Assembly: GCF_000878135.1 (NCBI RefSeq)
Contig: NZ_JXQZ01000004.1
Coordinates: forward strand, 1-38,368
Reading direction: 5' to 3'
Length of the DNA: 38,368 nt
Source of the DNA: Frigoribacterium sp. MEB024
GTDB taxonomy: Bacteria > Actinomycetota > Actinomycetes > Actinomycetales > Microbacteriaceae
Part shown: one piece after another, positions 2-33,882 of the stretch
How positions within the stretch are numbered: position 1 is the stretch's first letter
Layout: every line of letters starts with the position of its first letter
The notes under the pieces: generated by a model
What the model was told of the DNA's origin: nothing
Databases searched by the model: none
The model's input: only the letters and a program-made list of their open reading frames with translations
Position numbers and translations under genes: made by a program

Positions 2-1129
2 CCGCCTCCGAGTGGCGACCGCGAACCCACCTTCACCGAGATCCTCGGCGTCGTCCCGTCGTCCTCCGCCGAGGACGTCCTGACCGTGGACGCTCGGCAC
101 GAGCCCGAGCCCGAGCACGCCGTGCCCTCGGCGGAGGTCCCGGCCGCGTGGTCCCTGTCCGGCTCGGGCGAGGTGCCCCTGCTCGACGTCGAGCCGTCGC
201 CCGGCGTCGAGTCGTCGTCCGACGTCGAGCGGTCGTCCGACGACGTCGAGGACGACGACGAGGGCCTGGACGATGCAGCCGAGGTGACGACCGCGACCGC
301 CTTGTTCGCGCCTCCTCGGTCCGCCCGCGACGAGGCCCTCGACGAGGCCCGCGACGCCGCCGACGCCCCGGCCGTCGCCACGCCGGTGCTGCCCGGCGTC
401 TCGATGAGCACCACCGCCGCTCCGGAGGGCGAGCGGCCGCGCCGTGAGGTCGGAGGAGCCGGCGTCTTCGTGCCGCAGACCCGTCCGGTGGACGAGAAGC
501 CTGCCACGACACCCCGCGGGCCGGGCCTGGCCGACTGGGTCCGCGGACACCGGACGCTGGCCGCCGTCGGCGCCGGCCTCGTGATCGTGCTGTTGCTGGT
601 CGCGTTGTTCTTCATCTCGCGCTCGCTCTTCGCGTCGACCGACGACCTGGGCTCCGACCCGTCCGTGGCGGCGGAGCCGACCGGGACCCGCACCGTGACC
701 GCCGCCCCCGCGGCACCCGCCGCCGAGGTCGTTCCGACCGGCCCGCTGGCGGCCGGCACCCACTCGTACACCGACCTCCAGGGCGGCGAGTGCTTCTCGA
801 GCTTCGAGTCGGCCTGGCAGCAGGACTACGAGGTCTCCGACTGTGCTCAGCCGCACGTGGCTCAGCTGACCCGCCTCGGCAGCCTCGACGGCGACGCGTC
901 GGCCGCGTATCCCGGGACCGACGTGCTGCAGAGCCAGATGAACCTGCTCTGCACGGGCTCGGACGCCCTCGACCGCCAGGCCGCCGCGGCCTATCCCGAC
1001 GTGCAGCTGCTCGCGAGCTTCCCCGCAGACGCCGACGCCTGGGCGGCCGGCGACCGCACGTATTCGTGCTTCGTCAACCGCAGCGGCGGAGAGGCCCTGA
1101 CGACGAGCCTCGTCGCGGTGGCGGGCTGA
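2..1129 (+). CDS. Septum-formation-domain membrane protein, 5' partial
   Basis: The reading frame is open from base 2 of the window, so the start codon lies outside; the first GTG at 86 is not needed. Three parts are visible: a long acidic Asp/Glu/Ser/Val-rich, probably disordered cytoplasmic region; one transmembrane segment (about bases 550-630, VIVLLLVALFFI); and, after an Ala/Pro linker, an extracytoplasmic domain with GGECFSSF, VSDCAQPHVAQ, a CTG and GDRTYSCFVNRS. The Cys-x-QPH pattern, the four spaced cysteines and the late W-x-x-GDR-x-x-x-C match the actinobacterial septum-formation domain family (Pfam Septum_form). That family is found in membrane-anchored proteins of cell division or envelope context, and its molecular role is not established. 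The acidic N-terminal region is low complexity. The family call is fairly sure; the function is inference. Confidence 0.7.
   Translation, partial: PPPSGDREPTFTEILGVVPSSSAEDVLTVDARHEPEPEHAVPSAEVPAAWSLSGSGEVPLLDVEPSPGVESSSDVERSSDDVEDDDEGLDDAAEVTTATALFAPPRSARDEALDEARDAADAPAVATPVLPGVSMSTTAAPEGERPRREVGGAGVFVPQTRPVDEKPATTPRGPGLADWVRGHRTLAAVGAGLVIVLLLVALFFISRSLFASTDDLGSDPSVAAEPTGTRTVTAAPAAPAAEVVPTGPLAAGTHSYTDLQGGECFSSFESAWQQDYEVSDCAQPHVAQLTRLGSLDGDASAAYPGTDVLQSQMNLLCTGSDALDRQAAAAYPDVQLLASFPADADAWAAGDRTYSCFVNRSGGEALTTSLVAVAG
307..316 (-). repeat. Copy of interspersed AGGAGGCGCG decamer
   Basis: This is the first exact copy of a decamer that recurs through the window (see the finding on the repeat). 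Here it lies inside the partial septum-domain gene, in its disordered coding region. Confidence 0.6.
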
Positions 1130-1160
1130 CGGGTCGACCCGCCCCGCGCCTCCTGGGGTG

Positions 1161-1973
1161 CTAGGCCTCGGATGGCACCACGTCGGACTCGACGGGTTCG
1201 CTGCGCACCAGCTCGTGCACCCCGGCCAGGATCTCGTTGGGCCGGAACGGGTAGCGGTCGATCTCGGCCTGGTCGCTGATGCCCGTCATCACGAGGATCG
1301 TGTGCAGTCCGGCCTCGATGCCGGCCATGATGTCGGTGTCCATCCGGTCACCGATCATGGCGGTGTTCTCGCTGTGGGCGCCGATGCGGTTCATCGCCGA
1401 GCGGAACATCATCGGGTTGGGCTTGCCGACCACGTAGGGCTCTTTGTTGGTGGCCTTCGAGATCATGGCGGCGATCGCGCCCGTCGCGGGCAGCACGCCG
1501 TCGGCGCTGGGCCCGGTCGCGTCGGGGTTCGTCACGATGAACCGCGCGCCGCCGAGGATCAGTCGGACGGCCTTGGTGATCGAGTCGAACGAGTAGTTGC
1601 GGGTCTCGCCCACGACGACGTAGTCGGGGTTCGTCTCGGTCATGATGAAGCCGGCCTCGTGCAGGGCGGTCGTCATGCCGGCCTCGCCGATGACGAAGGC
1701 CGAGCCGCCGGGCATCTGCGAGCGGCAGAAGTCGGCCGTGGCGAGCGCGCTCGTCCAGATGCGCTCTTCGGGCACGTGCAGCCCCGAGGCGCGCAACCGC
1801 GCGGCGAGGTCGCGGGGCGTGAAGATCGAGTTGTTGGTGAGCACGAGGTAGGGCGTGCCTTCGTCCTGCCATTGCTGGATCAGCTCGGCGGCACCGGGCA
1901 GTGCGTGGTTCTCGTGGACGAGCACGCCGTCCATGTCGGTCAGCCAGCACTCGACGTCTTCTCGTGAACCCAT
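1161..1973 (-). CDS. HAD-IIA family sugar-phosphatase-like hydrolase
   Basis: This 270-residue protein has the full haloacid dehalogenase set. Motif I is LTDMDGVLV, with nucleophile Asp13 and acid/base Asp15. Motif II is VLTNNS (Thr46). The motif III lysine lies in VGKPNPMMFRSA, and motif IV is MIGDRMDTDI. The cap between motifs II and III and the GKPNP signature place it in subclass IIA (NagD / phosphoglycolate-phosphatase-like / p-nitrophenylphosphatase group), cytosolic Mg-dependent phosphatases whose substrates cannot be read from sequence. The ATG at 1973 is supported by a TAAGGT -10 box six bases upstream, giving a leaderless message divergent from the methyltransferase gene. Most such proteins are housekeeping phosphatases. 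The substrate is unknown, so I give no symbol. Confidence 0.88.
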   Translation of the reverse strand: MGSREDVECWLTDMDGVLVHENHALPGAAELIQQWQDEGTPYLVLTNNSIFTPRDLAARLRASGLHVPEERIWTSALATADFCRSQMPGGSAFVIGEAGMTTALHEAGFIMTETNPDYVVVGETRNYSFDSITKAVRLILGGARFIVTNPDATGPSADGVLPATGAIAAMISKATNKEPYVVGKPNPMMFRSAMNRIGAHSENTAMIGDRMDTDIMAGIEAGLHTILVMTGISDQAEIDRYPFRPNEILAGVHELVRSEPVESDVVPSEA

Positions 1974-1979
1974 GCGGTC

Positions 1980-1985
1980 ACCTTA
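1980..1985 (-). promoter_or_regulatory. -10 box (TAAGGT) of leaderless HAD gene
   Basis: On the minus strand TAAGGT is followed by exactly six bases and then the ATG at 1973, so the transcript should begin at or within a base of the start codon. No Shine-Dalgarno sequence is present. Confidence 0.6.
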
Positions 1986-2037
1986 GCGAGGTGCTCTGCG
2001 AGCCGAGGAGGCGCGGGTCGGGTCCGTGGAGAACACC

Positions 2038-2043
2038 TACCCT
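2038..2043 (+). promoter_or_regulatory. -10 box (TACCCT) of leaderless TrmH-family gene
   Basis: TACCCT is followed by six bases and a GTG at 2050. This spacing argues for GTG 2050 rather than the in-frame GTG at 2026, which lies upstream of the -10 box and would not be in the transcript. Confidence 0.6.
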
Positions 2044-2049
2044 GGTCGG

Positions 2050-2849: not shown

Positions 2850-3950
2850 GTGCCGCCGATTCCCACGCGACCCGCGTCCGACCCGACGCGGGTGTGCTTC
2901 GTCGCCGCCCCGTTGATGGCCCGCAGTGGCGTCTACCGCTCGACGCACGATCTCGTCGTCGAGGCCCGATCGCGGGGGCTCGACTGGCGGGCCGTGCTCG
3001 GCACGCGTCCCACGGCGCAGGGCCGACGAACCGAGACGCCGGGCGTCCGGGAGGTGACGATCACGCGGCACGGTCGCGCCGTCGTCGACGAGGTGCGCGA
3101 GGTGCTCGACGACGTGCCCGAGGTGGCGCGGGCCGACGTCGTCGTCACGCTCGTGACCCAGAGCGACGTCGCCTGGTCGCGGTCGACCGCCCGGCGGGGC
3201 CGGCTCTGGGTGGCCTGGGTGCGCGGCCTGCCGTGGCCCGCGCCGGGTGAGCAGTCGACGGCGCGGCGGGTGGCCCTCCGGTTGGTCGAGTCGGCCGCGC
3301 TCCGCCGAGCCGACGACGTGTGGGCGACGACCGAGGTCCTCGGGGCCGACGTCGCGCGCGTCCGACGGCCCCATCTCGTGCCCGCGGGCATCCGTCTGCC
3401 CGCCCGCACGTCCTTCGGCGAACGGTCGGTGCCCATGGTCTGGGCCGCCCGCCTCGACGTCGACAAGCGCCCTCGGGCCTTCGTGGACATCGCCGAGAGG
3501 TCCGGGGTGCCGGGGCGCCTGCACGGCCAGGGGCCGCTCGAAGCGGGGCTGCGCTCCGAGCTGCCCCCGATCGTGTCGATGCCCGGCTGGACGGACGCGT
3601 CCGAGCTCTGGGACGGCGCGGGGTTCTTCGTCGGGACGGCCTCGCGCGAGGCGTTCGGTCGCAGTGCCGTCGAGGCCGCGGCGACGGGCCTGCCGATCGT
3701 TCTCGGCGACCGGTACGGGGCCGCCCCCCTGCTCGTGACCGACGCCGAGCTGCGCCGACGCTTCGTCCTGCCCACAGGCGAGACGGGCCGGTGGATCACG
3801 GCGGTGCGAGACCTCGCCGGCGACGCCGACCTGCGGCGACGGATGTCCGACCACGTGGCGGGCAACGCGTCGCGCTCGTCCGTCACCGCGTCGGTCGACG
3901 CCGTCCATGACCGCCTCGTCGAGCTCGGCGTCGGCGGGTCCGCACGATGA
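2850..3950 (+). CDS. Glycosyltransferase, GT4-like, first gene of EPS operon
   Basis: This 366-residue cytosolic protein has two Rossmann-like halves. The second half shows VWAARLDVDKRPRAFVDIAE (start of the nucleotide-sugar-binding domain), LHGQGPLEAGL, and TASREAFGRSAVEAAATGLP. In the last, two glutamates seven residues apart (E-x7-E) follow the GT4 retaining-glycosyltransferase pattern. The start is GTG 2850, preceded by a purine-rich stretch; no closer alternative keeps the N-terminal VCFVAAPLMARSGVYRS strand. It leads an operon with a second glycosyltransferase (4-bp overlap), a flippase and a polymerase, so it should add a sugar to the lipid-linked repeat unit. Donor and acceptor are unknown. 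The family is rather divergent, but the fold-level call is good. Confidence 0.8.
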   Translation: MPPIPTRPASDPTRVCFVAAPLMARSGVYRSTHDLVVEARSRGLDWRAVLGTRPTAQGRRTETPGVREVTITRHGRAVVDEVREVLDDVPEVARADVVVTLVTQSDVAWSRSTARRGRLWVAWVRGLPWPAPGEQSTARRVALRLVESAALRRADDVWATTEVLGADVARVRRPHLVPAGIRLPARTSFGERSVPMVWAARLDVDKRPRAFVDIAERSGVPGRLHGQGPLEAGLRSELPPIVSMPGWTDASELWDGAGFFVGTASREAFGRSAVEAAATGLPIVLGDRYGAAPLLVTDAELRRRFVLPTGETGRWITAVRDLAGDADLRRRMSDHVAGNASRSSVTASVDAVHDRLVELGVGGSAR

Positions 3951-5113
3951 ACCGCGCGGCAGCCGTCACGGCGGCGAGGCGTCGACCGCTCCGCGTGGTC
4001 CAGTACGGCGTGCACGATCCCTCGTACCCGCGCAACTCCCGGCTCCGCGCGGTCCTCGAGGGACAGCTGGGCGCCCGGGTGCGCGTCGTCCGGCGCTCGA
4101 GGGCGGGGGCCCGGCCCCTGCGGGCACTGCGCGACCTGCGTTCGCTGTGTCGCGCGGCGGCGGGGGCCGACCTCGTGGTGCTGTCGGAGTTCCGCAGCAG
4201 CCAGGCGCTCGTGGTGCGCGCGGTGGCGTCGCTCAGTCGCGCGCGCCTCCTGGTGGACTGCTTCGTCCTGTCGCACGAGACGGCCGTCGGTGACTGGGGG
4301 CGTCCGTCACCGCGTTCGCCCGGGGCCCTGCGGCTCGCGGTGCTCGACGCGCTCGCCGTGCACTGCGCCCACCTCGTCCTCACCGACACCGAGCCGCGGG
4401 CGGCCGAGCTCGTCCGTCGGCACCGTCCCGCCGCCGTCGTGCTGCCCCTCGCCGTCGGGGCGCCGGGGTGGGCCCGATGGCAGCCCCCGCCGGAGCCGCA
4501 CGACGACCTGCGCGTGCTCTACTACGGCGGCTACGTGCCCCTGCACGGGGTCGACCTGGTGGTCGACGCGCTCGCGGCGATCGACGGCCGCCGGGACGTC
4601 TCGATGGTCTTCGTCGGTGACGGACCCGATCGTGGACGCATCGAGGCCCGCGTCGCCGGGCTCGGACCCGGCGTCCGGTGCGAGTTCGTCGGCGCGGTGC
4701 CCGAGTCCGAGCTGAGGGGGTATGTCGCCCGTGCCGACGTCGTCCTCGGGGTGTTCGGCACGTCCGTCAAGGCCCGCGGCGTCGTCGCCAACAAGGTCTG
4801 GCAGGGACTCGCCTGCGGCCGCTCGGTGATCACGCAGCGGTCGTCCGCCCTGGCCCCCCTCGCCGCGGTGGTCGGCGGGTCGCTCGTCCAGACCGAGCCG
4901 GGGTGCGCCTCGTCGCTCGCTCAGGCGCTCGTCGACGTGCGCCCGTCGACCCCCTCCACCGACGTCGACGTGCACCGACGGCTCGACGAACTCGTCGCCG
5001 CATCGTGGCAGCCGCTCGCCGGACACCTCATGGCGCTGGTGCGGGGCGACCGCCGGGCTCGCCACGGGCGTGGTGCGAGGTCGGGCACGGGCCGCGATCG
5101 CGAGGGCCGATGA
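3947..5113 (+). CDS. Glycosyltransferase, GT4-like, second gene of EPS operon
   Basis: This 388-residue protein begins at ATG 3947, overlapping the previous stop by 4 bp. The C-terminal half has VLYYGGYVPLHGVDLVVDAL (typical first strand and helix of the GT-B donor domain), MVFVGDGPDRGRIEA, FVGAVPESELRGYVARADV and NKVWQGLACGRSVI. The order and spacing fit GT4 enzymes. The usual E-x7-E is not obvious: the equivalent region reads KARGVVANKVWQGLACG, so the donor-site carboxylate arrangement may be unusual. The last 25 residues are Arg/Gly/Ala-rich and likely disordered. Context says that it extends the exopolysaccharide repeat unit at the inner membrane face. Linkage and sugar are unknown. Confidence 0.8.
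   Translation: MNRAAAVTAARRRPLRVVQYGVHDPSYPRNSRLRAVLEGQLGARVRVVRRSRAGARPLRALRDLRSLCRAAAGADLVVLSEFRSSQALVVRAVASLSRARLLVDCFVLSHETAVGDWGRPSPRSPGALRLAVLDALAVHCAHLVLTDTEPRAAELVRRHRPAAVVLPLAVGAPGWARWQPPPEPHDDLRVLYYGGYVPLHGVDLVVDALAAIDGRRDVSMVFVGDGPDRGRIEARVAGLGPGVRCEFVGAVPESELRGYVARADVVLGVFGTSVKARGVVANKVWQGLACGRSVITQRSSALAPLAAVVGGSLVQTEPGCASSLAQALVDVRPSTPSTDVDVHRRLDELVAASWQPLAGHLMALVRGDRRARHGRGARSGTGRDREGR
4242..4251 (-). repeat. Copy of interspersed AGGAGGCGCG decamer
   Basis: This is an exact copy inside the second glycosyltransferase gene, read on the minus strand. Confidence 0.6.
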
Positions 5114-11505: not shown

Positions 11506-11524
11506 CCGGCGCGACCGACGTCGA

Positions 11525-11568
11525 GAACGCAGGAGGCGCGGGTCACCCGACCCGCGCCTCCTGCGTTC
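11525..11568. terminator. Perfect 20-bp hairpin between convergent genes
   Basis: A 20-bp perfect stem (11525-11544 with 11549-11568) closes a 4-nt ACCC loop. It sits between the stops of the DUF3151 gene and the oppositely oriented YhgE/Pip gene, so it can end transcription from both sides. There is no U-tract. Each arm contains one AGGAGGCGCG decamer, so the terminator is built from two inverted copies of the repeat. Confidence 0.85.
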
Positions 11569-11595
11569 CCGACGGCGACCGCCGCCGCGCCGGCC

Positions 11596-13599: not shown

Positions 13600-14324
13600 G
13601 GCTGGTCGCTTTCGACGGGGGTGTCGGTGGTGGTGGCGACCACGGTGTCGTCGGGGGAGGAAGGAGGGGCGGTGTCGGTCTCGGGCACGGTGTCGGTCTC
13701 GACCGCAGCCGTCGGGGCGAACTCGGGCGTGGGCAGCGACTCGATCGTCGCGAGGGCCGCGAACCCGGTGATCGTCAGCACCGTGTAGTCACGACCGACG
13801 AGGTCGTGGACGACCGAGAGCCAGGCGGCGACGTCGCCCCCGTGACGTTCGGGGGTCGTCACGATCAGCCCGCGTACCTCGGGACGCAGCACGGCCAACT
13901 CGCAGAGCAGGCGGACGCGCAGTTCGGTGGGCAGGGCGCTCAGGCGCGTCCGCTCGTGTTCGCGCAGGCCGATCTCGTCGAGCAGCAGTCGAGCCGAGGC
14001 CTTGTCGGCTCGGAGCCCGGCCAGGGCGAGTTCTTCCCGGGCGACCTGCACGACCGTGAGGGCGGCGAAGGGTTCGGCGACGGTGGGTGTGTCGACGAGG
14101 GCGAAGGAGGCGCGGATCGCCGCGTCGTCCGACCGGCCGTCGACCGTCACCCGGCCGGCCTCGGGGCGCATGCGGCCGCCCGCGACGAGCGATGCGAGGG
14201 TGGGCGCGTTCTCGGTCTCGACCGCCACGAAGCCGGGGGTCCAGCGGTCGGCGACCGCGCTGAGCGGGGGCAGGGCCGCCCCGGGGCCGTCGCCGATCGC
14301 GACGTCGTGCAGTTCGAGTCTCAT
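13596..14324 (-). CDS. Degenerate ABC-ATPase-like protein, no Walker motifs
   Basis: This 242-residue cytosolic protein lines up with an ABC transporter ATPase but lacks the catalytic residues. Where a Walker A loop (GxxGxGKST) should lie before LRPxxGxVxVDG, it reads ETENAPTLASLVAGGRMRPE, with no lysine. The signature region reads LSALPTELRVRLLCELAVL instead of LSGGxxxR. The Walker B position reads VRGLIVTTPE instead of LLLLDEP. The overall spacing (VDG, Q-loop-like FALVDTP, signature, B-like) is kept, so this looks like a pseudo-ATPase, not a frameshifted gene. The last 40 residues are an acidic Thr/Asp/Pro tail. ATG 14324 overlaps the TetR stop and its own stop overlaps the YhgE/Pip start, implying tight co-translation and complex formation. 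The ABC ancestry is my inference from pattern. Confidence 0.6.
   Translation of the reverse strand: MRLELHDVAIGDGPGAALPPLSAVADRWTPGFVAVETENAPTLASLVAGGRMRPEAGRVTVDGRSDDAAIRASFALVDTPTVAEPFAALTVVQVAREELALAGLRADKASARLLLDEIGLREHERTRLSALPTELRVRLLCELAVLRPEVRGLIVTTPERHGGDVAAWLSVVHDLVGRDYTVLTITGFAALATIESLPTPEFAPTAAVETDTVPETDTAPPSSPDDTVVATTTDTPVESDQP
14105..14114 (+). repeat. Copy of interspersed AGGAGGCGCG decamer
   Basis: This is an exact copy inside the ABC-ATPase-like gene; a one-mismatch copy lies nearby in the TetR gene at 14350. Confidence 0.6.
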
Positions 14325-16353: not shown

Positions 16354-17544
16354 CTAGCGAGCGCCCATCAGGTGCTCGAGGGCGAGCTGCTGCAGGCGCA
16401 CGAAGCCGTAGCCGTGTCCACCGAAGTGGGCGTCGGCGTCGAAGTCCTCGTAGGAGGCGCGGTCGGCGAGCAACTGCTCGTAGCCTTCGCCGTCGGCGAG
16501 GGTGTTCACCGAGAGTTCGGCGACCTGGCTGGCGACCAGGGCCTCCTGCACCTCGGGGTCGGCGCGGAACGCCTGCGCGCGCTCCTTGAGGAGCAGGTAC
16601 ATCCGCATGTTGGCGGCCGCGGACTCCCACACGCCGTCGATCGTCTCGGTGCGCGAGGGCTTGTAGTCGAAGTGGCGCGGGCCGTCGTAGGTCGGTCCGC
16701 CCTGGGGCGAGCCGTGCTCGAGCAGGTCGACGAGCGAGAAGGCGTTCTGCAGGTCGCCGTGGCCGAACACGAGGTCCTGGTCGTACTTGATGCCGCGCTG
16801 GCCGTTGAGGTCGATGTGGAACAGCTTGCCCTGGTACAGCGCCTGGGCGATGCCGGCCGTGAAGTTCAGCCCGGCCATCTGCTCGTGACCGACCTCGGGG
16901 TTCACGCCGGCCATCTCGGGGTGCTCGAGCGTCTCGATGAACGCGATGGCGTGCCCGAGGGTCGGCAGCAGGATGTCGCCGCGGGGCTCGTTGGGCTTGG
17001 GCTCGATCGCGAAGCGCAGGTCGTAACCCTTGTCGAGCACGTACTGCGAGAGCATGTCGACGCCCTCCTTGTAGCGCGAGAGGGCGGCCTGCACGTCCTT
17101 GGCGCTGTCGTACTCGGCACCCTCACGGCCGCCCCACATGACGAAGGTCTTCGCGCCGAGCTCGGCGGCGAGGTCGATGTTGCGCAACACCTTGCGCAAG
17201 GCGAAACGACGGACGCCGCGGTCGTTCGAGGTGAAGCCGCCGTCCTTGAAGACGGGTGCGCTGAAGAGGTTCGTGGTGACCATCGGCACGACGATGCCGG
17301 TCGCGTCGAGCGCGCCCTTGAGGCGGTCGATCTGCTTCTGGCGCTCGGCGTCGGTCGAGCCGAAGGCGAACAGGTCGTCGTCGTGGAAGGTCAGTCCGTA
17401 GGCGCCGAGACGGTCGAGGTTCTCGACGGCCTCGACGACGTCGAGCTGCGGGCGGGTCGGGCCGCCGAAGGGGTCCGAGCCGTTGTAGCCGATCGTCCAG
17501 AGGCCGAACGAGAACTTGTCTTCGCGGGTGGGGGTGGTGGACAT
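16354..17544 (-). CDS. xylA: Xylose isomerase
   Basis: This 396-residue class I xylose isomerase (D-xylose to D-xylulose, cytosolic, Mg/Mn/Co-dependent) has all catalytic positions at the Streptomyces numbering. His54 and Asp57 are in TFHDDD. Glu181 and Lys183 are in [10 protein letters not shown]. Glu217 and His220 are in NPEVGHEQM. Asp245, Asp255 and Asp257 are in [18 protein letters not shown] 17544 is chosen over an upstream in-frame codon at 17577 because it places residues at the family positions and has a GGAAGGGA Shine-Dalgarno sequence. It is divergent from the LacI regulator and monocistronic, ended by a hairpin. The upstream region contains two candidate operators. Its partner xylulokinase lies about 9 kb away on the same strand. 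Confidence 0.97.
16452..16461 (+). repeat. Copy of interspersed AGGAGGCGCG decamer
   Basis: This is an exact copy inside the xylA coding region. Confidence 0.6.
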
Positions 17545-17773: not shown

Positions 17774-18790
17774 ATGACGACGATCCACGACGTGGCCCAG
17801 GCCGCCGGTGTGTCGATCTCGACGGTCTCGTACGCCCTGTCCGGCAAGCGTTCGATCGCGGCGTCGACCCGGCAGCGGGTCACCGACGCCGTCGAGCGGC
17901 TCGGCTACCGACCCCATGCCGGAGCCCGCATGCTCGCCGGCGCCCGGACCAACATCCTGGCGCTCAGCGCGCCGATCCGGCCCGACAACCACCAGCCCAC
18001 CCAGATGCGGTTCGTCACCGCCGTCGTCGAGGCGGCTCGTCGTCGGGACTACGACGTGCTGCTGCTCGCCACCGACGACGAGGTGTCGGGCATCCGTCGC
18101 GTGGCCTCGAGTTCGCTCGTCGACGGCGTCGTCGCGATCGGCGTGGCGACCGTCGACGAACGCGTCGACCTCGTCCGCGAGCTCGACCTGCCGGCCGGCT
18201 TCATCGGCATCCCACAGGGCGTCGACGACCTCGCCTGCATCGACCTCGACTTCGCCGCAGCTGCCGCCGAGAGCGTCGATCGCCTGGCCGACGCCGGGCA
18301 CCGGTCCATCGGCGTCATCGGCCACCCGGCGTCGTACGGCGAGCGTGACACCGGCTTCATCCGTCGCTTCGACGACGCCTTCGCCACCCGCGCCGACGGC
18401 CGCGGTGTCGAGACCCTGACCGTGGCGGCGGACCTCGGGCGGGCGTCGGCCGTCCGGGCGTTCGACGACCTCCGCGAGCGGTTGCCGGGCATGACCGCGC
18501 TCGTGCTGCACTGCAGCGAGCCCACCGCCGAGGCCGTCCTCCAGCGCGTCCGGCGCCTCGGGCTCGAGATACCTCGGGACCTCTCGGTGCTGGCGGCCTG
18601 TGCCAGCTACCCCGCCGACGAGTTCGAGCCGGCCCTCGACACCATCCCGCTGCCGATCGACGAGATGTGCTCCCGGGCGGTCGAGGCCGCCTTCGAGCGG
18701 ATCGACGGCCGTCTCGACACGGGCGTCGAGCTGATCGCACCCACCTATCTGGCGAAGGGCTCGGTCTCCGGGCCGGCCCGCGCCTCCTGA
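17774..18790 (+). CDS. LacI-family transcriptional regulator of sugar uptake
   Basis: This 338-residue protein has an N-terminal LacI helix-turn-helix (TIHDVAQAAGVSISTVSYALSG) and the hinge-helix region (YRPHAGARMLAGARTNILAL). A periplasmic-binding-protein-like effector domain follows, with DGVVAIGV, GHRSIGVIGHP and RDLSVLAACASYPADEFEPALDTIPLP. The ATG follows an AGCGAGG Shine-Dalgarno sequence. It is transcribed toward the ABC transporter, 142 bp upstream of the binding protein gene. The two matching palindromes (17728 and 18881) strongly suggest that it controls both itself and the transporter/GH31 genes, probably induced by the imported xyloside. Its last codons fall in a copy of the decamer, giving the terminal Arg-Ala-Ser. 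Confidence 0.92.
   Translation: MTTIHDVAQAAGVSISTVSYALSGKRSIAASTRQRVTDAVERLGYRPHAGARMLAGARTNILALSAPIRPDNHQPTQMRFVTAVVEAARRRDYDVLLLATDDEVSGIRRVASSSLVDGVVAIGVATVDERVDLVRELDLPAGFIGIPQGVDDLACIDLDFAAAAAESVDRLADAGHRSIGVIGHPASYGERDTGFIRRFDDAFATRADGRGVETLTVAADLGRASAVRAFDDLRERLPGMTALVLHCSEPTAEAVLQRVRRLGLEIPRDLSVLAACASYPADEFEPALDTIPLPIDEMCSRAVEAAFERIDGRLDTGVELIAPTYLAKGSVSGPARAS
18779..18788 (-). repeat. Decamer copy forming the 3' end of the LacI gene
   Basis: CGCGCCTCCT supplies the last codons (Arg-Ala-Ser) and the first base of the stop codon TGA. The ROK repressor gene ends the same way at 25759-25768. Confidence 0.7.
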
Positions 18791-22167: not shown

Positions 22168-24450
22168 ATGAAGTTCACCGACGGTTTCTGGCAGATCCGA
22201 CCGGGGGTCGAGTCCCTCTTCGCCCAGGAGGCCCACGACGTCGAGGCCCGGGAGGACGGACGCTGGATCGAGGTCACCGCGCCCACCAAGGTGATCGCCT
22301 CGCGGGGCGACACCCTCAACCGCCCGACGCTCACGATCGCGCTGAGTTCACCGATGGAAGGTGTCATCGCCGTCGACGTCACCCACTTCGCCGGTGGTCG
22401 CGACGAGATCGGGTTCGACCTGGTGGGCTCCGAGGGCGGCCCCGCCGGAGTGGGGGTCGTCGAGACGAGCGAAGGAGGCGCGACCCTGACCTCGGGACGC
22501 CTCACCGCCACCGTCGGTCGCGGGGCACCGTTCGAGCTGACGTTCCGCGACGGCGACACCGTGCTCACCCGGTCGGGCCACAAGTCGGTCGGCTACCACC
22601 GGGTCGCCGCGGACGCCCAGGTCGACGGGGCGATGCTCGGCAACGCCCGGGCCGGCACCGGACGCGTCCTCGCGCCGAGCTACGTCTCGCAGCAACTCTC
22701 GTTGGGCGTCGGCGAGCTCGTCTACGGCCTCGGCGAGCGGTTCGGCCCGTTGGTCAAGAACGGCCAGACGGTCGACGTGTGGAACGCCGACGGCGGCACG
22801 TCGAGCGAACAGGCCTACAAGAACGTCCCGTTCTACGTGACGAACCGCGGGTACGGCGTCCTCGTCGACCACCCGGGCCACGTCTCGTACGAGATCGGCT
22901 CCGAGTCGGTCGAACGGGTGCAGTTCTCGGTGGCGGGCGAGACCCTGCGCTACCTGGTGATCGCCGGCCCGACCCCGGCCGACGTGCTCGACCGCTACAC
23001 GCGGCTGACCGGCCGCCCGGCTCACGTTCCGGCCTGGTCGTACGGCCTGTGGCTGTCGACGTCGTTCACGACGGACTACGACGAGGCGACGGTGACGGGC
23101 TTCGTCGACGAGATGGCCCGCCGTGACATGCCGGTCAGCGTGTTCCACTTCGACTGCTTCTGGATGCGTGAGTTCCAGTGGTGCGACTTCGAGTGGGATC
23201 CCCGCGTGTTCCCCGACCCCGAGGGCATGCTCGCCCGGCTGCACGAGCGCGACCTGCGCGTCTGCGTCTGGATCAACCCGTACATCGGTCAGCGCTCGGC
23301 GCTGTTCCGCGAGGCGGCCGAAGCCGGTTACCTCGTCCGGAACCCCGACGGCAGCGTCTGGCAGTGGGACCTCTGGCAGGCCGGCATGGGCCTGGTCGAC
23401 TTCACGAACCCCGAGGCGACGGCCTGGTTCCAGGGGCACCTGCGTCGTCTGCAGTCCCAGGGCGTCGACGCCTTCAAGACCGACTTCGGCGAGCGCATCC
23501 CCACCGACGTCGTCTGGCACGACGGCTCCGACCCCGAGCGCATGCACAACTGGTACACGCAGCTCTACAACCGGGCGGTCTTCGAGGTGCTCGAGGAGGT
23601 GCGCGGCGAGGGCGACGCCGTCGTCTTCGCCCGCTCGGCGACGACGGGCGGTCAGGCGCTTCCCGTGCACTGGGGTGGCGACTCGACGTCGACCTTCGAG
23701 TCGATGGCCGAGACCCTGCGCGGCGGACTGTCCCTGGCGATGAGCGGCTTCTCGTTCTGGAGCCACGACATCGGCGGCTTCGAGGGGACTCCCGACGCCG
23801 AGGTCTACAAGCGGTGGACGGCCTTCGGTCTGCTGTCGAGCCATAGCCGGTTCCACGGCAGCTCGTCGTACCGGGTGCCGTGGGCCTTCGACGACGAGGC
23901 CGTCGAGGTCACCCGCCGCTTCACGAAGCTGAAGCTGTCCCTCATGCCCTATCTCTACGCCGCCGGGCTCGAGTCGTCGCGCTCGGGACTGCCGGTCATG
24001 CGACCGATGGCCCTGGCCTTCCCCGACGACCGAGGCGCCGCCCACGTCGACACGCAGTACCTCCTCGGCGACGACCTGCTCGTCGCGCCGGTCTTCTCGG
24101 CCGACGGCACCGTCGAGGTGTACCTGCCGGCCGGACGCTGGACGAACTGGTGGACCGGCGACGTCGTCGACGCGGGCGCCGGCGTCTGGCGCACCGAGGT
24201 GCACGACGTGCTGAGCCTGCCGCTCTACGTGCGTGAGGGGGCGGTGATCCCGGTCGGTGCGCGGGACGACCGCCCCGACCACGACTACCTCGACGGTCTC
24301 GTGCTCAAGGTGTTCCCCGGCGGGGACGGCACCCGCTCGCTCACGGTGACGACGCCCGGTGGCGAGTCCGCCGACTTCGTCGTCACGCGGTCAGGAGGCG
24401 CGGTGTCGGTCGAGACCGCCGCCACCGGCTGGCAGATCGACGAGGTCTGA
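22168..24450 (+). CDS. yicI: GH31 alpha-xylosidase (YicI type)
   Basis: This 760-residue cytosolic glycoside hydrolase of family 31 is collinear with E. coli YicI (772 residues). The catalytic nucleophile is Asp439 in AFKTDFGER. The acid/base is Asp505 in HWGGDS. The substrate-pocket Cys330-Phe331 in FHFDCFWMREF is equivalent to the YicI Cys-Phe pair that favours xylose over glucose. The stretches VFARSATTGGQALPVHWGGDS, GLSLAMSGFSFWSHDIGGF and YKRWTAFGLLSSHSRFHGSSSYRVPWAF match YicI closely. No signal peptide is present, so substrate arrives through the upstream ABC importer. It releases alpha-linked xylose from xyloglucan-type oligosaccharides or isoprimeverose. It contains two decamer copies. 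Could also act on other alpha-xylosides; alpha-glucosidase activity is less likely. Confidence 0.95.
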   Translation: MKFTDGFWQIRPGVESLFAQEAHDVEAREDGRWIEVTAPTKVIASRGDTLNRPTLTIALSSPMEGVIAVDVTHFAGGRDEIGFDLVGSEGGPAGVGVVETSEGGATLTSGRLTATVGRGAPFELTFRDGDTVLTRSGHKSVGYHRVAADAQVDGAMLGNARAGTGRVLAPSYVSQQLSLGVGELVYGLGERFGPLVKNGQTVDVWNADGGTSSEQAYKNVPFYVTNRGYGVLVDHPGHVSYEIGSESVERVQFSVAGETLRYLVIAGPTPADVLDRYTRLTGRPAHVPAWSYGLWLSTSFTTDYDEATVTGFVDEMARRDMPVSVFHFDCFWMREFQWCDFEWDPRVFPDPEGMLARLHERDLRVCVWINPYIGQRSALFREAAEAGYLVRNPDGSVWQWDLWQAGMGLVDFTNPEATAWFQGHLRRLQSQGVDAFKTDFGERIPTDVVWHDGSDPERMHNWYTQLYNRAVFEVLEEVRGEGDAVVFARSATTGGQALPVHWGGDSTSTFESMAETLRGGLSLAMSGFSFWSHDIGGFEGTPDAEVYKRWTAFGLLSSHSRFHGSSSYRVPWAFDDEAVEVTRRFTKLKLSLMPYLYAAGLESSRSGLPVMRPMALAFPDDRGAAHVDTQYLLGDDLLVAPVFSADGTVEVYLPAGRWTNWWTGDVVDAGAGVWRTEVHDVLSLPLYVREGAVIPVGARDDRPDHDYLDGLVLKVFPGGDGTRSLTVTTPGGESADFVVTRSGGAVSVETAATGWQIDEV
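22473..22482 (+). repeat. Copy of interspersed AGGAGGCGCG decamer
   Basis: This is an exact in-frame copy in the alpha-xylosidase gene (encodes Gly-Gly-Ala). A second lies at 24393-24402 in the same gene, again encoding Gly-Gly-Ala. Confidence 0.6.
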
Positions 24451-24549: not shown

Positions 24550-25770
24550 GTGACGACACAGCAGGGCGGTGGCGAGACCGAGGCGACACCCGACCTCGGT
24601 GCTCGGTTCGACCGGGTCCGGCGCGACAACCTCGCGACGGTGCTCGGCATCGTCCACACCGACGGGGCCACCTCGCGGTCGGCCCTCACGCAGGCGACCG
24701 GGCTCAACCGGTCGACGATCGCGGCGCTCGTGGGCGAACTCGTCGACCGGGGGCTCGTCGTCGAGACCGACCCGGTCGGCACCAACCGGGTCGGGCGTCC
24801 CAGCCCCGTCGTGGCCCCGAGCCCCCGTGTCGTCGCGATCGCGGTCAACCCCGAGATCGACGCCGTCACGGTCGGGGCCGTGGGGCTCGACGGCGTCGTG
24901 CAGCACCGCGTCCGTCGTGAGACCGACGGGGTGCCCAGCGCGCCCCAGGCCGCGGCGCTCGCCGCCGAGGTGATCGCCGAGCTGCGGTCCACCGCGCTGT
25001 CTCCCGACGTGCGGGTGCTCGGGGTGGGTCTCGCGGTGCCCGGCCTGGTCGGCTCCGACGGGGGAGTGGTGCGCCTGGCCCCGCACCTCGGCTGGATCGA
25101 CGAGCCGTTCGCGGCGGTCGTCGCGTCGGCGACGGGGTTGCCGACGCGGGCCGCCAACGACGCGTCGCTCGGTGCGGTCGCCGAGGGGCGCTTCGGAGCC
25201 GGGCGGGGCGTCGACGACCTCGTGTTCCTGAACGGCGGTGCGAGTGGTGTCGGCGGGGGAGTCCTGATCGGCGGCAGTCCGGTGACCGGCGTGGGTGGTT
25301 TCGCCGGTGAGATCGGGCACACCCTCGTCAACTCGGTCGGTCAGCTCTGCCACTGCGGCGCCGTGGGCTGCCTCGAGACCGAGGTCGGGCAGGCCCGCCT
25401 GCTCGCCGTCACGGGGCTCGACCGCGGTCAGGTCGACCAGCTCGACGCGGCGCTCGCCGGTGCCGAGCCCGGTTCGTCCGTGGCCGTCGAGGTGCGGCGT
25501 CAGATCGACTTCCTGGCCGTGGCTCTGCGGGGCGTCGTCAACTCGTTCAACCCCGAGCTGATCGTGCTCGGCGGCTTCCTCGGATCGCTGCACGCGGCCG
25601 ACCCCGGCCGGCTCGCCGAGCGGGTCCGCGGTCAGTCCCTGCCCGGCGCCCGCGACGACGTGCGGATCACCCGAGCCGCGCTCGGCGTGGACCGGCTGAC
25701 GATCGGTGCCGCCGAACTGGCCTTCGCCGCCGTGCTGGCCGACCCGGCGTCCGTGACCCGCGCCTCCTGA
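24550..25770 (+). CDS. ROK-family transcriptional repressor, XylR-like
   Basis: This 406-residue protein has an N-terminal winged helix-turn-helix (RRDNLATVLGIVHTDGATSRSALTQATGLNRSTIAALVGEL, about residues 17-60) and a ROK domain. The zinc-binding motif is His257 and Cys267-x-Cys269-x4-Cys274 in GHTLVNSVGQLCHCGAVGC. The kinase-type DxGxT ATP loop is missing, replaced by AIAVNPEIDAVTVG. It is therefore a regulator and not a sugar kinase. ROK repressors of the XylR type bind sugar in this domain and release DNA. It lies between the alpha-xylosidase and xylB genes; candidate binding sites are 17659-17679 and 28135-28155. Starts at GTG 24550 with a GGAGGGG Shine-Dalgarno sequence. The gene ends in a decamer copy. 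Confidence 0.9.
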   Translation: MTTQQGGGETEATPDLGARFDRVRRDNLATVLGIVHTDGATSRSALTQATGLNRSTIAALVGELVDRGLVVETDPVGTNRVGRPSPVVAPSPRVVAIAVNPEIDAVTVGAVGLDGVVQHRVRRETDGVPSAPQAAALAAEVIAELRSTALSPDVRVLGVGLAVPGLVGSDGGVVRLAPHLGWIDEPFAAVVASATGLPTRAANDASLGAVAEGRFGAGRGVDDLVFLNGGASGVGGGVLIGGSPVTGVGGFAGEIGHTLVNSVGQLCHCGAVGCLETEVGQARLLAVTGLDRGQVDQLDAALAGAEPGSSVAVEVRRQIDFLAVALRGVVNSFNPELIVLGGFLGSLHAADPGRLAERVRGQSLPGARDDVRITRAALGVDRLTIGAAELAFAAVLADPASVTRAS

Positions 25771-25787
25771 CCCGACCCGCGCCTCCT
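25759..25787 (-). repeat. Tandem pair of AGGAGGCGCG decamers at ROK gene end
   Basis: GACCCGCGCCTCCTG occurs twice, 19 bp apart (decamers at 25759-25768 and 25778-25787). The first copy spans the last codons and the stop of the ROK gene; the second lies just beyond. This looks like a duplication of the repeat unit with its GACC flank. Confidence 0.7.
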
Positions 25788-28187: not shown

Positions 28188-28197
28188 CGCGCCTCCT
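28188..28197 (-). repeat. Decamer copy in xylB-purA intergenic region
   Basis: This is an exact copy in the 166-bp gap between divergent xylB and purA. Confidence 0.6.
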
Positions 28198-30069: not shown

Positions 30070-30090
30070 ACCCACCCGGGCCGACCCGGC

Positions 30091-30136
30091 CGTGAAGGAG
30101 GCGCGTCCTGCGAGAGCGGGACGCGCCTCCTTCGTG
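30091..30136. terminator. Hairpin of inverted decamers downstream of Ohr gene
   Basis: A stem of about 18 bp (one G-T wobble), with arms 30094-30111 and 30116-30133, closes a GAGA tetraloop (30112-30115), and weaker pairs extend it on each side. Each arm holds one AGGAGGCGCG decamer (30096-30105 and 30122-30131). No long T-tract follows; the 3' flank has only TTCGTG. Confidence 0.85.
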
Positions 30137-30177
30137 CGTGGGCGGTCCGTCGGTGGTCTCACCGACGGGCGCGCCGA

Positions 30178-30549: not shown

Positions 30550-31607
30550 GCGACCCCGACCCGTCCGCCCCGACGCGCCTCTACGTCGGCTCGTACACCG
30601 CGGTCAGCGGTGGCCACGGCGTCGGCATCACCGTCCTCGAGCGGTCGCGGGCCGACGGGCGCTGGCAGGCCGGGCAGGTCGTCGAGGCCGACGACCCGTC
30701 GTTCCTGGTCGTCACCGAGGGGGCGTTGCACGCCGTCGCCGAGACGAACGAGGGCCGTGTGCTGTCGTACACGATCGCGGCGGGCCGCCTGGTCGAGGCC
30801 GGCGTCGCCGCGTCCGGCGGTGCCTCGCCCTGCCACATCGCGCACGACCCGGCCTCGAACGCCCTGCTCGTCGCGAACTACGTCGGCGGCACCTTCGGGG
30901 TGTTGAGCTCCGAGGCCACCGATCCCGCGCGCGTCACCGCGACCGTCGCGCTCCCGTCGGGCTCCGGCCCGGTCGCCGATCGCCAGGGCGGGCCGCACGC
31001 CCACCAGATCGTCGCGACGCCGTGGGGCACGCATCTGGTCAGCGACCTGGGCACCGACCGACTGATCGAGGTCGCCGTCGACGTCGTCACGCTCGAGCCG
31101 TCGATCGTCGCCGTCCACCCGATGCCCCCCGGCTCGGGCCCGCGACACCTCGCCTGGCTCGGCGACGACCTGCTCGTCGTGGGCGAGCTCGACGCCCGGC
31201 TGTACGTCGTCCGCCGCCAGGGCGACGAGCTCGTCATCCCGTACTCGGTGGCGGTCGTCGAGGGCGAGCCGAACGAGCGGGGCGACCTCCCGTCGCACCT
31301 GGCCGTGCACGGCTCGCGGGTCTACGTCGCCACGCGCGGCCGCGACACGATCAGCGTGCTCGAGACCTCGGTCGACGCCGAGGGCGGCTCCGACGGTGGC
31401 GAGCCGTCGCGGCTCCGCCTGGTCGGGCAGGTGCCCTGTGGTGGCGACTGGCCTCGACACTTCGCCATCGCCGACGGCCTGCTCTACTGCGCCAACCAGG
31501 GCTCCGACACCGTCTCGGTGCTGCCGCTCGACGAGACGACCGGTCTGCCCGGCGCTCCCGTCGACCTGTTCACCCTCGGCAGCCCCGCCTGCATCGTCGC
31601 CGTCTGA
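30546..31607 (+). CDS. Lactonase family beta-propeller protein (YbhE/Pgl type)
   Basis: This 353-residue protein starts at GTG 30546 in the chorismate mutase stop (GTGA). It has the seven-bladed propeller pattern of YbhE-type 6-phosphogluconolactonases: RLYVGSYTA, SFLVVTEGALHAVAET, GGASPCHIAHDP, NALLVANYVGGTFGVL, GGPHAHQIVATPWGTHLVSDLGTDRLIEV, GSGPRHLAWL, LPSHLAVHGSRVYVATRGRDTISVLE and DWPRHFAIADGLLYCANQGSDTVSVLPLD. The His/Arg/Asp residues at the lactone site are present. Probable hydrolysis of a sugar lactone in the cytosol; the natural substrate is not certain. No signal peptide. Confidence 0.88.
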   Translation: MSDPDPSAPTRLYVGSYTAVSGGHGVGITVLERSRADGRWQAGQVVEADDPSFLVVTEGALHAVAETNEGRVLSYTIAAGRLVEAGVAASGGASPCHIAHDPASNALLVANYVGGTFGVLSSEATDPARVTATVALPSGSGPVADRQGGPHAHQIVATPWGTHLVSDLGTDRLIEVAVDVVTLEPSIVAVHPMPPGSGPRHLAWLGDDLLVVGELDARLYVVRRQGDELVIPYSVAVVEGEPNERGDLPSHLAVHGSRVYVATRGRDTISVLETSVDAEGGSDGGEPSRLRLVGQVPCGGDWPRHFAIADGLLYCANQGSDTVSVLPLDETTGLPGAPVDLFTLGSPACIVAV

Positions 31608-31616
31608 CCGGGCCGC

Positions 31617-31626
31617 AGGAGGCGCG
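31617..31626 (+). repeat. Decamer copy between convergent lactonase and TetR genes
   Basis: This is an exact copy within the 21-bp gap between convergent genes and the last bases of the TetR gene. Confidence 0.6.
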
Positions 31627-31628
31627 GG

Positions 31629-32195
31629 TCAGCGTCGCGGCACGAGCCGCTGCAGCACGGCGATGACGTCGTCGATCGACGTGTCGTGGCGCGGGTCGCC
31701 GCCCGAGTCCACCGGTGAGAAGGGCCGCGGCGTGAAGTAGAGCCCGTCGGACACGAGCGACACCACCCGGGCGACCGCGGGGTCGCCGACGGCGTCGAGC
31801 ACGACCTGGTGCCAGCGGGACTGCATGGCGGTGAGGGCCTCGAGCGCCCGGGGGTGGCGTCCGCTCGACGCGAGGTTCGAGACGGCGGTGATGCAGCGGT
31901 CGAGCGGGTCGTCGGCCGGGATGGCCGCGGGTGACGAGGTGCGGACGAAGTAGTCCACGACGCCCTCCGGTGCGCTGGTCATCGCCGCGACGTCGTCGTC
32001 GAGCAGTGCGGTGAGGCGGTCGACGAGGGCGTCGACCAGTGCCTCGCGCGTGGGGAAGTGGTAGAGCAGGCCGCCCTTCGAGACTCCGGCCGCAGCGGCC
32101 ACGGCGTCGAAGGTCGCGGCGCGTTCGCCGTCGTCGACGACGAGCGTCTCGAACGTGTCGAGCATCGATTCCCGGGCTGACGGTCGAGGGCTCAT
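31629..32195 (-). CDS. TetR-family regulator of MFS efflux gene
   Basis: This 188-residue protein has a Tet[57 protein letters not shown] (about residues 6-58). The C-terminal region (about 100 residues) matches the TetR_C_6-like group with [22 protein letters not shown] 32195 is leaderless (TACAGT six bases upstream) and keeps the HTH; an in-frame start 89 codons upstream is a reading-frame artefact. It is divergent from the MFS transporter, and two tandem 14-bp palindromes occupy the shared control region. Probably relieves repression on binding an exported drug. The ligand is unknown. Confidence 0.9.
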
Positions 32196-32201
32196 TCTGT
32201 T

Positions 32202-32242
32202 ACTGTACCGTCTGGACGGTGTAACTGTACCGTCCGGACGGT
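32202..32242. promoter_or_regulatory. Divergent promoter with tandem TetR operators
   Basis: Two 14-bp palindromes, ACCGTCTGGACGGT (32207-32220, central mismatch) and ACCGTCCGGACGGT (32229-32242, perfect), lie 22 bp apart, centre to centre, about two helical turns, so two dimers could bind the same face. Each is preceded by ACTGT, making a 22-bp tandem unit. The minus-strand -10 TACAGT (32207-32202) abuts the first palindrome. Confidence 0.8.
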
Positions 32243-32249
32243 CGGCACG

Positions 32250-32259
32250 CGCGCCTCCT
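32250..32259 (-). repeat. Decamer copy upstream of MFS gene
   Basis: This is an exact copy eight bases past the second TetR palindrome, in the leader of the MFS gene. Confidence 0.6.
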
Positions 32260-32337
32260 GCCCTCGTCGGGCCGCCGACGCGCGGCGGTGGCGCACCGTC
32301 GACCGACCCGCCGCTCCACCGACCGCGAGAGAACGCC

Positions 32338-33882
32338 ATGACCCGCCCCGCCACCGTCACCGCCACGACCCCGACCGGCGTCCCGCCGCGTGCCGGCCGA
32401 CGACAGTGGGCCGCGCTGGTCGTGCTCATGCTGCCGGTGCTGCTCGTCTCGGTCGACAACACGGTGCTGAGCTTCGCGCTGCCCGAGATCTCGACCGCCC
32501 TGCAGCCGAGCGCCGCAGGTCAGCTCTGGATCGTCGACGTCTACTCGCTCGTCCTCGCCGGCCTGCTCGTGGCCATGGGGTCGATGGGCGACCGGTTCGG
32601 GCGCCGCAAGCTGCTGCTGATCGGTGCGAGCGGATTCGCCGTCGTCTCGGTGCTCGCAGCGTTCTCCACGAGCGCCGAGCAGCTCATCACGGCACGAGCC
32701 GTGCTGGGCTTCTTCGGCGCGATGATCATGCCGGCGACCCTCTCGCTGCTGCGCAGCACCTTCCTCGACCGAGAGCAGCGCCGGCTCGCGATCGCCGTCT
32801 GGGCCTCGGGCTTCGCCGCCGGGTCGGCCCTCGGCCCGATCGTCGGCGGCGTGCTCCTCGAGCACTTCGCCTGGGGTTCGGTGTTCCTCATCGCGGTGCC
32901 CGTGCTCGTCCCCCTGCTGATCGCCGGCCCGCTGCTGCTGACCGAGAGCCGCGATCCCGCGCCGGGGCCCGCCGACCCGTTCTCGGTGCTGCTGTCGCTC
33001 GCGGCCATGGCGCCGGTCGTCGCGGCGATCAAACTGCTCGCGACCGACGGCTTCGTCTGGCCCGTCGCCGCCCTGGCCGTGGTGGGAGTGGGCTCGGGCT
33101 GGCTGTTCGTCAGGCGCCAGCTCGCCCGCCCGCGTCCGCTGCTCGACGTGCGGCTCTTCACGAACCCGGTGTTCGCTGGCTCGGTCATGGTCAACCTGCT
33201 CGCCGTGGTGGCGCTCGTGGCCTTCCTGTTCTTCACGACCCAGCACCTGCAGCTCGTCGTGGGGTTGCGGCCGTTGCAGGCCGCGCTGACGCTGGTGCCC
33301 GGCCTCGTCGTCATGATCCTCGCCGGTCTCGGCGTCGTGCGGGTCGTCCGGTGGCTGCGCCCGCGCACCATCGTCGCGATCGGCCTCGCCTCCGCCGCGC
33401 TGGCCTACGGGGCGGTCTTCGCCACCGGCGCCGGGGCCCCGGTGGTCGTGTTCGTCGTGGCCTTCGCCTTCGTGGGTCTGGGCGTGGGCGCTGCCGAGAC
33501 GATCTCGAACGACCTGATCATCGCGGCGGTGCCCGCGAACCGGGCCGGGGCGGCCTCCGCCGTGTCCGAGACCGCCTACGAGGTCGGCGCCGTGCTCGGC
33601 ACCGCGGTGCTCGGCAGCATGCTCACCGCCATCTACCGGGGTGCACTCGTCGTCCCCGCCGGCGTCCCCGCCCAGGCCGGCGAGGCCGCCCGCGAGACCC
33701 TGGGAGGCGCGGTGGCGGTCTCCGACGGGCTGCCCGAGTCGCTCGCCGGGCCCCTGCTGCGCGCCGCCACCGACGCCTTCGACCAGGGCCTCGTCGCCAC
33801 GGCCGGGGTCGGGGCACTGGTGATGGTCGCCGCGGTGGTGGTCGCGCTCACGACCCTCCGCCGCGCCTCCTCGGCCGACTGA
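32338..33882 (+). CDS. DHA2-family MFS drug efflux transporter, 14 TMS
   Basis: This 514-residue inner-membrane protein has about 14 predicted helices. Helix 1 has the acidic residue in [18 protein letters not shown]. The loop 2-3 motif A is [17 protein letters not shown]. Motif C-like PIVGGVLLE follows [12 protein letters not shown] in helix 5 (drug/H+ antiporter signature). It resembles QacA/SmvA/LfrA-type proton-driven exporters of cationic drugs or dyes. ATG 32338 is preceded by GAGAGAA; upstream codons in frame are not hydrophobic. The long C-terminal loop before the last helix (about residues 440-480) is Ala/Gly-rich. It has a one-mismatch decamer and ends beside a decamer copy. Substrate unknown. 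Confidence 0.9.
33862..33871 (-). repeat. Decamer copy near the 3' end of the MFS gene
   Basis: This is an exact copy in the last codons (Arg-Ala-Ser-Ser), the same peptide context as at the ends of the LacI and ROK genes. Confidence 0.6.

Follow-up and report, generated by a model that had tools for sequence, protein, structure and literature searches.

A dispersed decamer as a candidate DNA uptake sequence in the actinobacterial genus Frigoribacterium

AGGAGGCGCG is a decamer scattered along the window analysed here, a stretch of 38,368 nucleotides from Frigoribacterium sp. MEB024 (contig NZ_JXQZ01000004.1). A sequence-only reading of the window had reported 19 exact copies and listed nine one-mismatch sites. 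All 19 copies are present at the positions it gave, eight on the forward and 11 on the reverse strand; all nine one-mismatch sites exist as well, and the window holds 13 such sites in total. Copies lie inside genes at 307..316 (-) in gene 86-1129(+), at 4242..4251 (-) in gene 3995-5113(+), at 14105..14114 (+) in gene 13596-14324(-) and at 16452..16461 (+) in the xylose isomerase gene 16354-17544(-). Two lie in the GH31 alpha-xylosidase gene 22168-24450(+), one internal (22473..22482, +) and one at its 3' end (24393..24402, +). Three more fall in the last codons of a gene: 18779..18788 (-) in gene 17774-18790(+), 25759..25768 (-) in the ROK-family gene 24550-25770(+), and 33862..33871 (-) in gene 32338-33882(+). 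Convergent genes flank the copies at 1145..1154 (-), between 86-1129(+) and 1161-1973(-), at 25778..25787 (-), and at 31617..31626 (+), between 30546-31607(+) and 31629-32165(-). Divergent genes flank those at 28188..28197 (-), between a xylulokinase-like gene (-) and purA (+), at 32250..32259 (-), as the genes were called (a longer minus-strand open reading frame to 32462 is possible), and at 2006..2015 (+). The last of these has its AGGAGG end 14 nt ahead of the start at 2026 and could double as a Shine-Dalgarno sequence, one of few such copies.

The remaining four copies form the arms of two hairpins. A near-perfect hairpin at 11519..11574 has an inverted decamer pair as its left (11531..11540, +) and right (11553..11562, -) arms; it folds with -54.4 and -58.3 kcal/mol (z about -12) and sits between two genes that converge on it, with their ends at 11505(+) and 11596(-). 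Its position and fold indicate that it is probably a bidirectional terminator. The hairpin at 30084..30145, with arms at 30096..30105 (+) and 30122..30131 (-), reaches -49.4 and -42.6 kcal/mol (z -7.2 and -6.4). It lies between tandem genes, one ending at 30069 and the next starting at 30190, and on the same grounds is probably a terminator. The earlier statement that inverted pairs form terminators thus holds for the long stems at 11531/11553 and 30096/30122, which form on either strand, with termination itself as our inference. It does not extend to the pair 25759/25778, which is a direct repeat without a hairpin and folds no better than shuffled sequences.

The excess of the decamer is real and stronger than first claimed. 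Under an order-3 Markov model, 0.25 exact copies would be expected on both strands of the window, so the roughly 20-fold enrichment originally estimated was too low, the true figure being about 75-fold. With up to one mismatch, the window contains 32 matches; dinucleotide shuffles give 13.1 +/- 3.4, with a maximum of 21. The whole MEB024 genome (3,406,371 b in 136 contigs) contains 1420 exact copies, 722 forward and 698 reverse, or about one per 2.4 kb, against 10 copies of the reversed word, which serves as the control throughout. A genome-wide count, which the sequence-only reading had proposed as a check, bears out the excess. A 355,459-b sample of this genome (G000), window included, holds 156 copies where 2.9 are expected; it underlies the context and pair counts below, for which genes were called by a home-made gene caller.

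Copies occur in coding and non-coding DNA and on both strands, as had been noted from the window. Within genes lie 85 of the 156 copies (0.27 per kb), 38 sense and 47 antisense, and this near-equality argues that the decamer is not an RNA-level signal. The sense reading frame that would require AGG AGG codons is almost unused, holding 2 of 38 sense copies. The densest class is DNA between convergent genes, with 22 copies at 4.5 per kb, followed by tandem (31 copies, 1.6 per kb) and divergent (6 copies, 0.69 per kb) intergenic DNA; 12 copies lie past the last called gene at the end of a stretch. The described tendency to sit at gene ends is evident, with 50 of 156 copies non-coding and at most 80 nt after a stop, where 5.5 are expected. 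Close pairs, within 80 b, number 21 against 5.4 for random placement: 12 are in the AGG..CCT or hairpin order, four in CCT..AGG order and five direct, and 32 of the 156 copies belong to inverted pairs within this distance. Most copies are not Shine-Dalgarno sites, again as first reported: only 5 of 156 stand 3-14 nt upstream of a same-strand start, and the corresponding figure in a set of 132 copies is 3. A Shine-Dalgarno signal was rejected on these counts.

Codon usage and GC content, which the first reading had considered as a possible source of the excess, do not remove it. Shuffling synonymous codons gene by gene (200 rounds) leaves an expectation of 12.6 +/- 2.9 coding copies (maximum 20), and 85 are observed; the same procedure gives 79 against 15.6 in G110, a Frigoribacterium genome of another species, 14 against 1.8 in Frigoribacterium sp. 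Leaf186 and 10 against 2.6 in F. faeni. The coding excess therefore outlives the removal of synonymous codon order.

Nearly all information lies within the ten bases of the word, the flanking positions contributing at most 0.40 bit each in the MEB024 sample. The GGTC flank described earlier is only weakly preferred (G 72%, then G 47% or T 24%, T 36% or G 33%, and C 66%). A REP/MITE-type family (repetitive extragenic palindromes or miniature inverted-repeat transposable elements) was rejected because homology stays within the short word. Single-base variants exceed expectation in MEB024 clearly at positions 1 and 10, and T at position 7 occurs 7 times against 2.3 expected; other changes at positions 2-9 are mostly near or below expectation. 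The core of the word is GGAGGCGC(G), and A is favoured as the base before it; the word can also be given as core GGAGGCGCG with A as the preferred first base. G110 accepts, in addition, T at position 7, G at position 9 and all bases at position 10, and is looser than MEB024 at these positions; a clean second dialect was not seen in this comparison. The first-base variant GGGAGGCGCG is relatively frequent in 93 kb of F. faeni, at 16 against 22 exact copies compared with 27 against 156 in MEB024, and is so in Leaf186 too, at 11 against 31. Whole-genome one-mismatch counts gave no clear sign that the word is decaying in F. faeni.

Abundance at this level is limited to Frigoribacterium among the genomes surveyed. 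Across 299 genomes and 85 genera of the family, which answers the check on related genera, all seven Frigoribacterium genomes carry 513-1420 copies (control 10-51), and the highest of the 292 others, G055, carries 216 (control 75). In a phylum sample of 396 genomes, none of the 395 others exceeds 149 copies (control 62). Leaf186, whose IlvE is 98% identical to that of the window, has 1381 copies (control 15), F. faeni (92%) has 1204 (29) and F. endophyticum (90%) has 513 (51). One Clavibacter genome has 99 (96), three Curtobacterium genomes 30-35 (51-73), Rathayibacter 91 (120), Cryobacterium 16 (33) and Agrococcus 42 (23); IlvE identities to Clavibacter, Curtobacterium, Rathayibacter and Cryobacterium, among the best matches, are 70-78%. 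As a separate observation, G055, which belongs to another genus, shows five copies in 161,920 b sampled, and there the inner word GGAGGCGC is weakly in excess (73 against 33).

Replication polarity was assessed in the single-contig genome G110 at 21 places covering 480 kb. The leading-strand share is 45-55% for every placement of the origin, and with the origin set at the contig start the strands carry 63 and 69 copies; the lack of strand bias argues against Chi- or KOPS-like signals (KOPS, FtsK-orienting polar sequences). The decamer is present in all 21 stretches sampled around this chromosome. Along contig C1 of G110, stretches farther from the contig start are poorer in the decamer (Spearman -0.52, p 0.015), and density is about two-fold higher in the half-circle around that start. 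Other repeated words with near-zero expectation also occur in these 480 kb, namely TTCCTGAATGAG (7 copies) and TCCTGAATGAGG (8 copies). In an 8,282-b contig of F. endophyticum (L011), 71 overlapping nine-base G (or C) words make up a long homopolymer, possibly an assembly artefact.

Relative to the sister species Leaf186 the word is largely retained. In the alignment with Leaf186, which sets aside 30 unaligned sites, 55 of 69 decamers are intact and six more keep the last nine bases, compared with 164 of 573 permuted decamers. The substitution rate is 0.038 inside decamers against 0.116-0.193 in the flanks. A split by class, confined to contig C1 and the window, finds 50 of 62 aligned copies intact, against about 40% of other 10-mers: 26 of 29 in coding DNA (others 39%) and 24 of 33 in intergenic DNA (others 40%). 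Retention is weaker at greater distance, F. faeni keeping 11 of 30 copies (other 10-mers 23% and 18%). The word is maintained at the level of the genome while individual sites turn over, a combination that is read as the mark of a position-independent signal.

MEB024 encodes a set of competence genes: ComEA with SLBB and HhH domains, ComEC, ComM and a DprA with a winged helix. A type IV pilus locus adjoins rpoC and comprises two T2SSE ATPases, assigned as PilB and PilT by order and domain, a two-domain PilC, PilD, PilM and a PilN-like protein lacking a Pfam hit. Its N-methylated products are a pilin of 151 aa and a second, pilin-like protein; two further pilin-like proteins were read from position and N-terminus and have no Pfam pilin hit. 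Tad genes are present in MEB024 as well. Among the Frigoribacterium genomes searched, ComEC is found in six of six, DprA in nine of nine (with a split dprA in F. faeni) and a two-domain PilC in eight of nine, the exception being F. faeni. The pilins share 35-58% identity with those of Leaf186, while PilB shares 99%. This divergence was also seen as a property of the whole pilin cassette (PilX-, PilW- and PilV-like proteins and PilA; L170, 2937-7386), which was compared with L171-L174, L178 and L179: the same 35-58% applies to Leaf186, with nearby PilB and PilM at 98-99%, and identity to the more distant F. endophyticum is 63-78%. By these identities the cassette looks exchanged between lineages.

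The dprA gene of F. faeni (G300) lies in two pieces, at 170,167-170,430 and 188,500-188,922 of contig C1. The DNA between them (about 170,431-188,499; L176) carries terminase, portal, capsid/protease, head-tail, tail and tape-measure genes, and from this gene content the insert is identified as a prophage. Its GC content, about 56-65% per kb, is lower than that of the host. It holds no decamer in about 18 kb, where about 6.4 would be expected at mean density (1204 per 3.4 Mb); the only decamer in 170,001-190,000, at 189,559, lies outside the insert. With dprA interrupted, this F. faeni strain may no longer be transformable.

The sequence-only reading had likened the word to DNA uptake sequences (DUS) and other genome-wide signals rather than to a Shine-Dalgarno core, and most genomic tests (abundance, genus restriction, occurrence on both strands, lack of polarity, context, maintenance in the sister species and gene content) support that choice. 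We consider it likely that AGGAGGCGCG is a DNA uptake sequence of the genus Frigoribacterium, similar to DUS and to uptake signal sequences (USS), with a secondary use in terminators. It shows most of the features by which this class can be recognised in a genome: over-representation, an excess independent of composition, no polarity, a context of genes and intergenic hairpins, restriction to a clade, and the presence of competence genes. Under this proposal, a surface pilin or another competence protein would bind double-stranded DNA bearing the decamer, and pilus retraction would hand that DNA to ComEA. ComEC would then import one strand, which DprA and RecA would recombine. Since DNA with the decamer would be taken up and recombined more often, the word would accumulate chromosome-wide by biased transformation and be kept in either orientation wherever coding allows, and inverted pairs behind genes would be co-opted as terminator hairpins. 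We infer the binding, the uptake bias, the receptor and the terminator activity from genomic patterns.

Several observations weigh against an uptake sequence. G035 keeps 6 of 26 copies (others 23% and 17%), no better than background, and F. endophyticum keeps 2 of 26, which is below background (others 20% and 17%); in both genomes substitutions inside the word are as frequent as in other 10-mers or more so. Poorer local density in the more distant genomes would look the same as turnover of sites (G301 has three copies in 88 kb sampled). Of 120 family genomes, 62 have PilM; the pilus is therefore older than the word or more widespread, and it cannot alone explain the genus restriction. A receptor search by pilin charge and conservation singled out no candidate, and the strong divergence of pilins between close species means that there is no obvious conserved reader; a small conserved reader surface could hide in the divergent pilins. 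F. faeni keeps its 1204 copies despite the split dprA, and a two-domain PilC was not found there. The loss of competence may be recent or confined to this strain; alternatively, the signal has another role. The absence of the decamer from the prophage is a single case, in DNA of lower GC content. Finally, a search of the open-licence literature, without preprints and most subscription papers, found no text joining 'Frigoribacterium' and 'natural transformation'. In the same open-licence literature, again without preprints, an exact-string search for the decamer returned only papers that appear unrelated by title and the start of the abstract, and none of the titles examined among papers matching one of three strings concerned an uptake word.

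The main rival to an uptake sequence, which we regard as unlikely, is the genome-wide site of a cytoplasmic protein that binds or modifies DNA, such as a nucleoid protein, an orphan methyltransferase or a chromosome organiser. Its spread would be comparable to that of cyanobacterial HIP1, and both terminators and spread would be side effects. Such a site fits a short word that is restricted to one genus and kept in a sister species, the retention of the word in F. faeni with its split dprA, and a density that varies with position in one complete contig. It accords less well with a word that, unlike HIP1, is not palindromic, with the turnover of individual sites between species and with the occurrence of the word in every one of the 21 stretches around one chromosome. 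Terminator-like inverted pairs are not known to occur at genome-wide protein sites. They are a reported habit of DUS and USS, according to parts of one account (PMC12616744). It is quite improbable that the word is mainly a terminator or 3'-end module that spread and left gene-internal copies as leftovers. The strong hairpins, the 21 close pairs with 12 in AGG..CCT order, the 50 of 156 copies at most 80 nt after a stop and the density of 4.5 per kb between convergent genes would all suit a module of this kind; yet 124 of the 156 copies lie outside inverted pairs within 80 b, 85 are genic with nearly equal numbers sense and antisense, and genic copies are conserved in Leaf186 no less well than the intergenic copies (26 of 29 against 24 of 33). 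A terminator-only reading was rejected on the genic share and the unpaired copies.

A polar chromosome signal, either a Chi-like recombination hotspot or an FtsK-orienting KOPS, would match the abundance of about one copy per 2.4 kb. Chi and KOPS show a strong strand bias along each replichore, and the balance of 63 against 69 copies in G110, with a range of 45-55% over all origin placements, contradicts such a signal and makes it highly improbable. The chance that the word merely reflects GC content, codon usage or the likeness of AGGAGG to a Shine-Dalgarno sequence is close to nil. The word does contain AGGAGG, its host is GC-rich, and about 13 copies per 317 kb of coding DNA remain after codon shuffling; the excess of 85 over the shuffled 12.6, the 10 copies of the reversed word against 1420, the lack of such an excess in related GC-rich genera and the mere 5 of 156 copies near starts contradict this explanation.

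An unrelated nonamer, CGGCATACC, was spotted among loci containing ilvE, with 11 copies in 21 kb of Phycicoccus sp. Soil802 (L041). Genome counts, with the control in brackets, are 1210 (4) in Soil802 and 1158 (1) in Pedococcus cremeus (L086), compared with 75 (9) in Allobranchiibius, 20 (10) in Sinomonas, 12 (20) in Microbacterium and 8 (1) in Clavibacter; it is absent from the Leaf186 genome. Across 119 genomes of the Phycicoccus/Pedococcus family, counts range from background (as low as 2), where many members remain, up to 2198, and the highest are 2198 (6) in G772, 1989 (7) in G796 and 1850 (3) in G745. Five genomes (G699, G700, G772, G796 and G745) carry 1158-2198 copies against 1-7 of the reversed word. 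In 121 kb of Soil802 there are 46 copies against 0.84 expected, with eight inverted pairs within 80 b, four of them at exactly 22 b, and 44 kb of G772 hold 28 against 0.95 expected. The nonamer is dispersed, with inverted pairs where sampled; it shares the genomic habits of the Frigoribacterium word, and the two sequences are unrelated. This suggests that uptake-type codes are an overlooked actinobacterial trait. We lean slightly towards the view that unrelated codes for recognising self DNA arose several times independently within Actinobacteria: Frigoribacterium would use AGGAGGCGCG, and the Phycicoccus/Pedococcus family CGGCATACC (up to 2198 copies per genome).

A further candidate, GTGAGAGAG of Arthrobacter, was rejected, as it forms a local array with 32-b spacing in the loci fetched and is not dispersed. 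Arrays of this word occur near ilvE in Arthrobacter/Paenarthrobacter at 3288-3393 and 11184-11407 of L061 and at 3351-3391 and 11194-11429 of L071, and an array of TATGTGAGT lies near ilvE at 8340-8700 of L060; the arrays are spaced by 32 b or multiples of it.

If AGGAGGCGCG is an uptake word, it would be new for this branch of bacteria. If several such codes evolved in Actinobacteria, sequence-biased transformation would be no peculiarity of two Gram-negative families and would instead be a recurrent outcome of competence, single-membrane bacteria included. High-GC, single-membrane bacteria would supply a third case and probably a fourth, each independent. Such cases would permit tests of why uptake words evolve, whether by molecular drive or by selection for DNA from kin, and would point to new systems of protein-DNA recognition on pili. 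In practice, such environmental actinobacteria may become easier to transform when the DNA offered to them carries the word.

Among known dispersed words, HIP1 of cyanobacteria is a palindromic short word with extreme genome-wide over-representation; unlike it, AGGAGGCGCG is not palindromic and forms inverted-pair hairpins. The USS of Pasteurellaceae (AAGTGCGGT, ACAAGCGGT) resemble the decamer in abundance class and genomic habits, as far as these are set out in parts of PMC12616744. They differ in core word and phylum, and the receptor is unproven in both. Neither of the inner cores named in parts of that source, CTG for DUS and GCGG for USS, lies within AGGAGGCGCG. The USS core arises, as ...GCGCGG, only when the next base G (72%) is counted, and the likeness is taken as chance because the T that would follow is present in only 24%.

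Close in habit, too, are the DUS of Neisseriaceae, for which sections of PMC3630211 give 2,245 to 3,603 copies per genome for single dialects and numerous inverted pairs. As described in parts of PMC3630211 and PMC12616744, they share with the Frigoribacterium word a length of about 10 b, very many copies, a placement in genes and in inverted pairs at terminators, a distribution that follows the phylogeny of a related group, and an association with competence genes and type IV pili. The Frigoribacterium word has another sequence and an actinobacterial, single-membrane host, and its uptake bias and any ComP-type receptor are putative. Among actinobacteria, natural transformation is established in Micrococcus luteus, with Tad genes and ComEA/ComEC (PMC4322843, in part); the term 'uptake sequence' was absent from the text of that paper covered by a term search. 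ComEA, ComEC and Tad genes are all present in MEB024; Frigoribacterium differs in having, besides these, a type IV pilus locus that encodes a two-domain PilC. The kind of signal is thus already known from DUS and USS; what would be new is its instance in another phylum, together with a second, unrelated word in another family.

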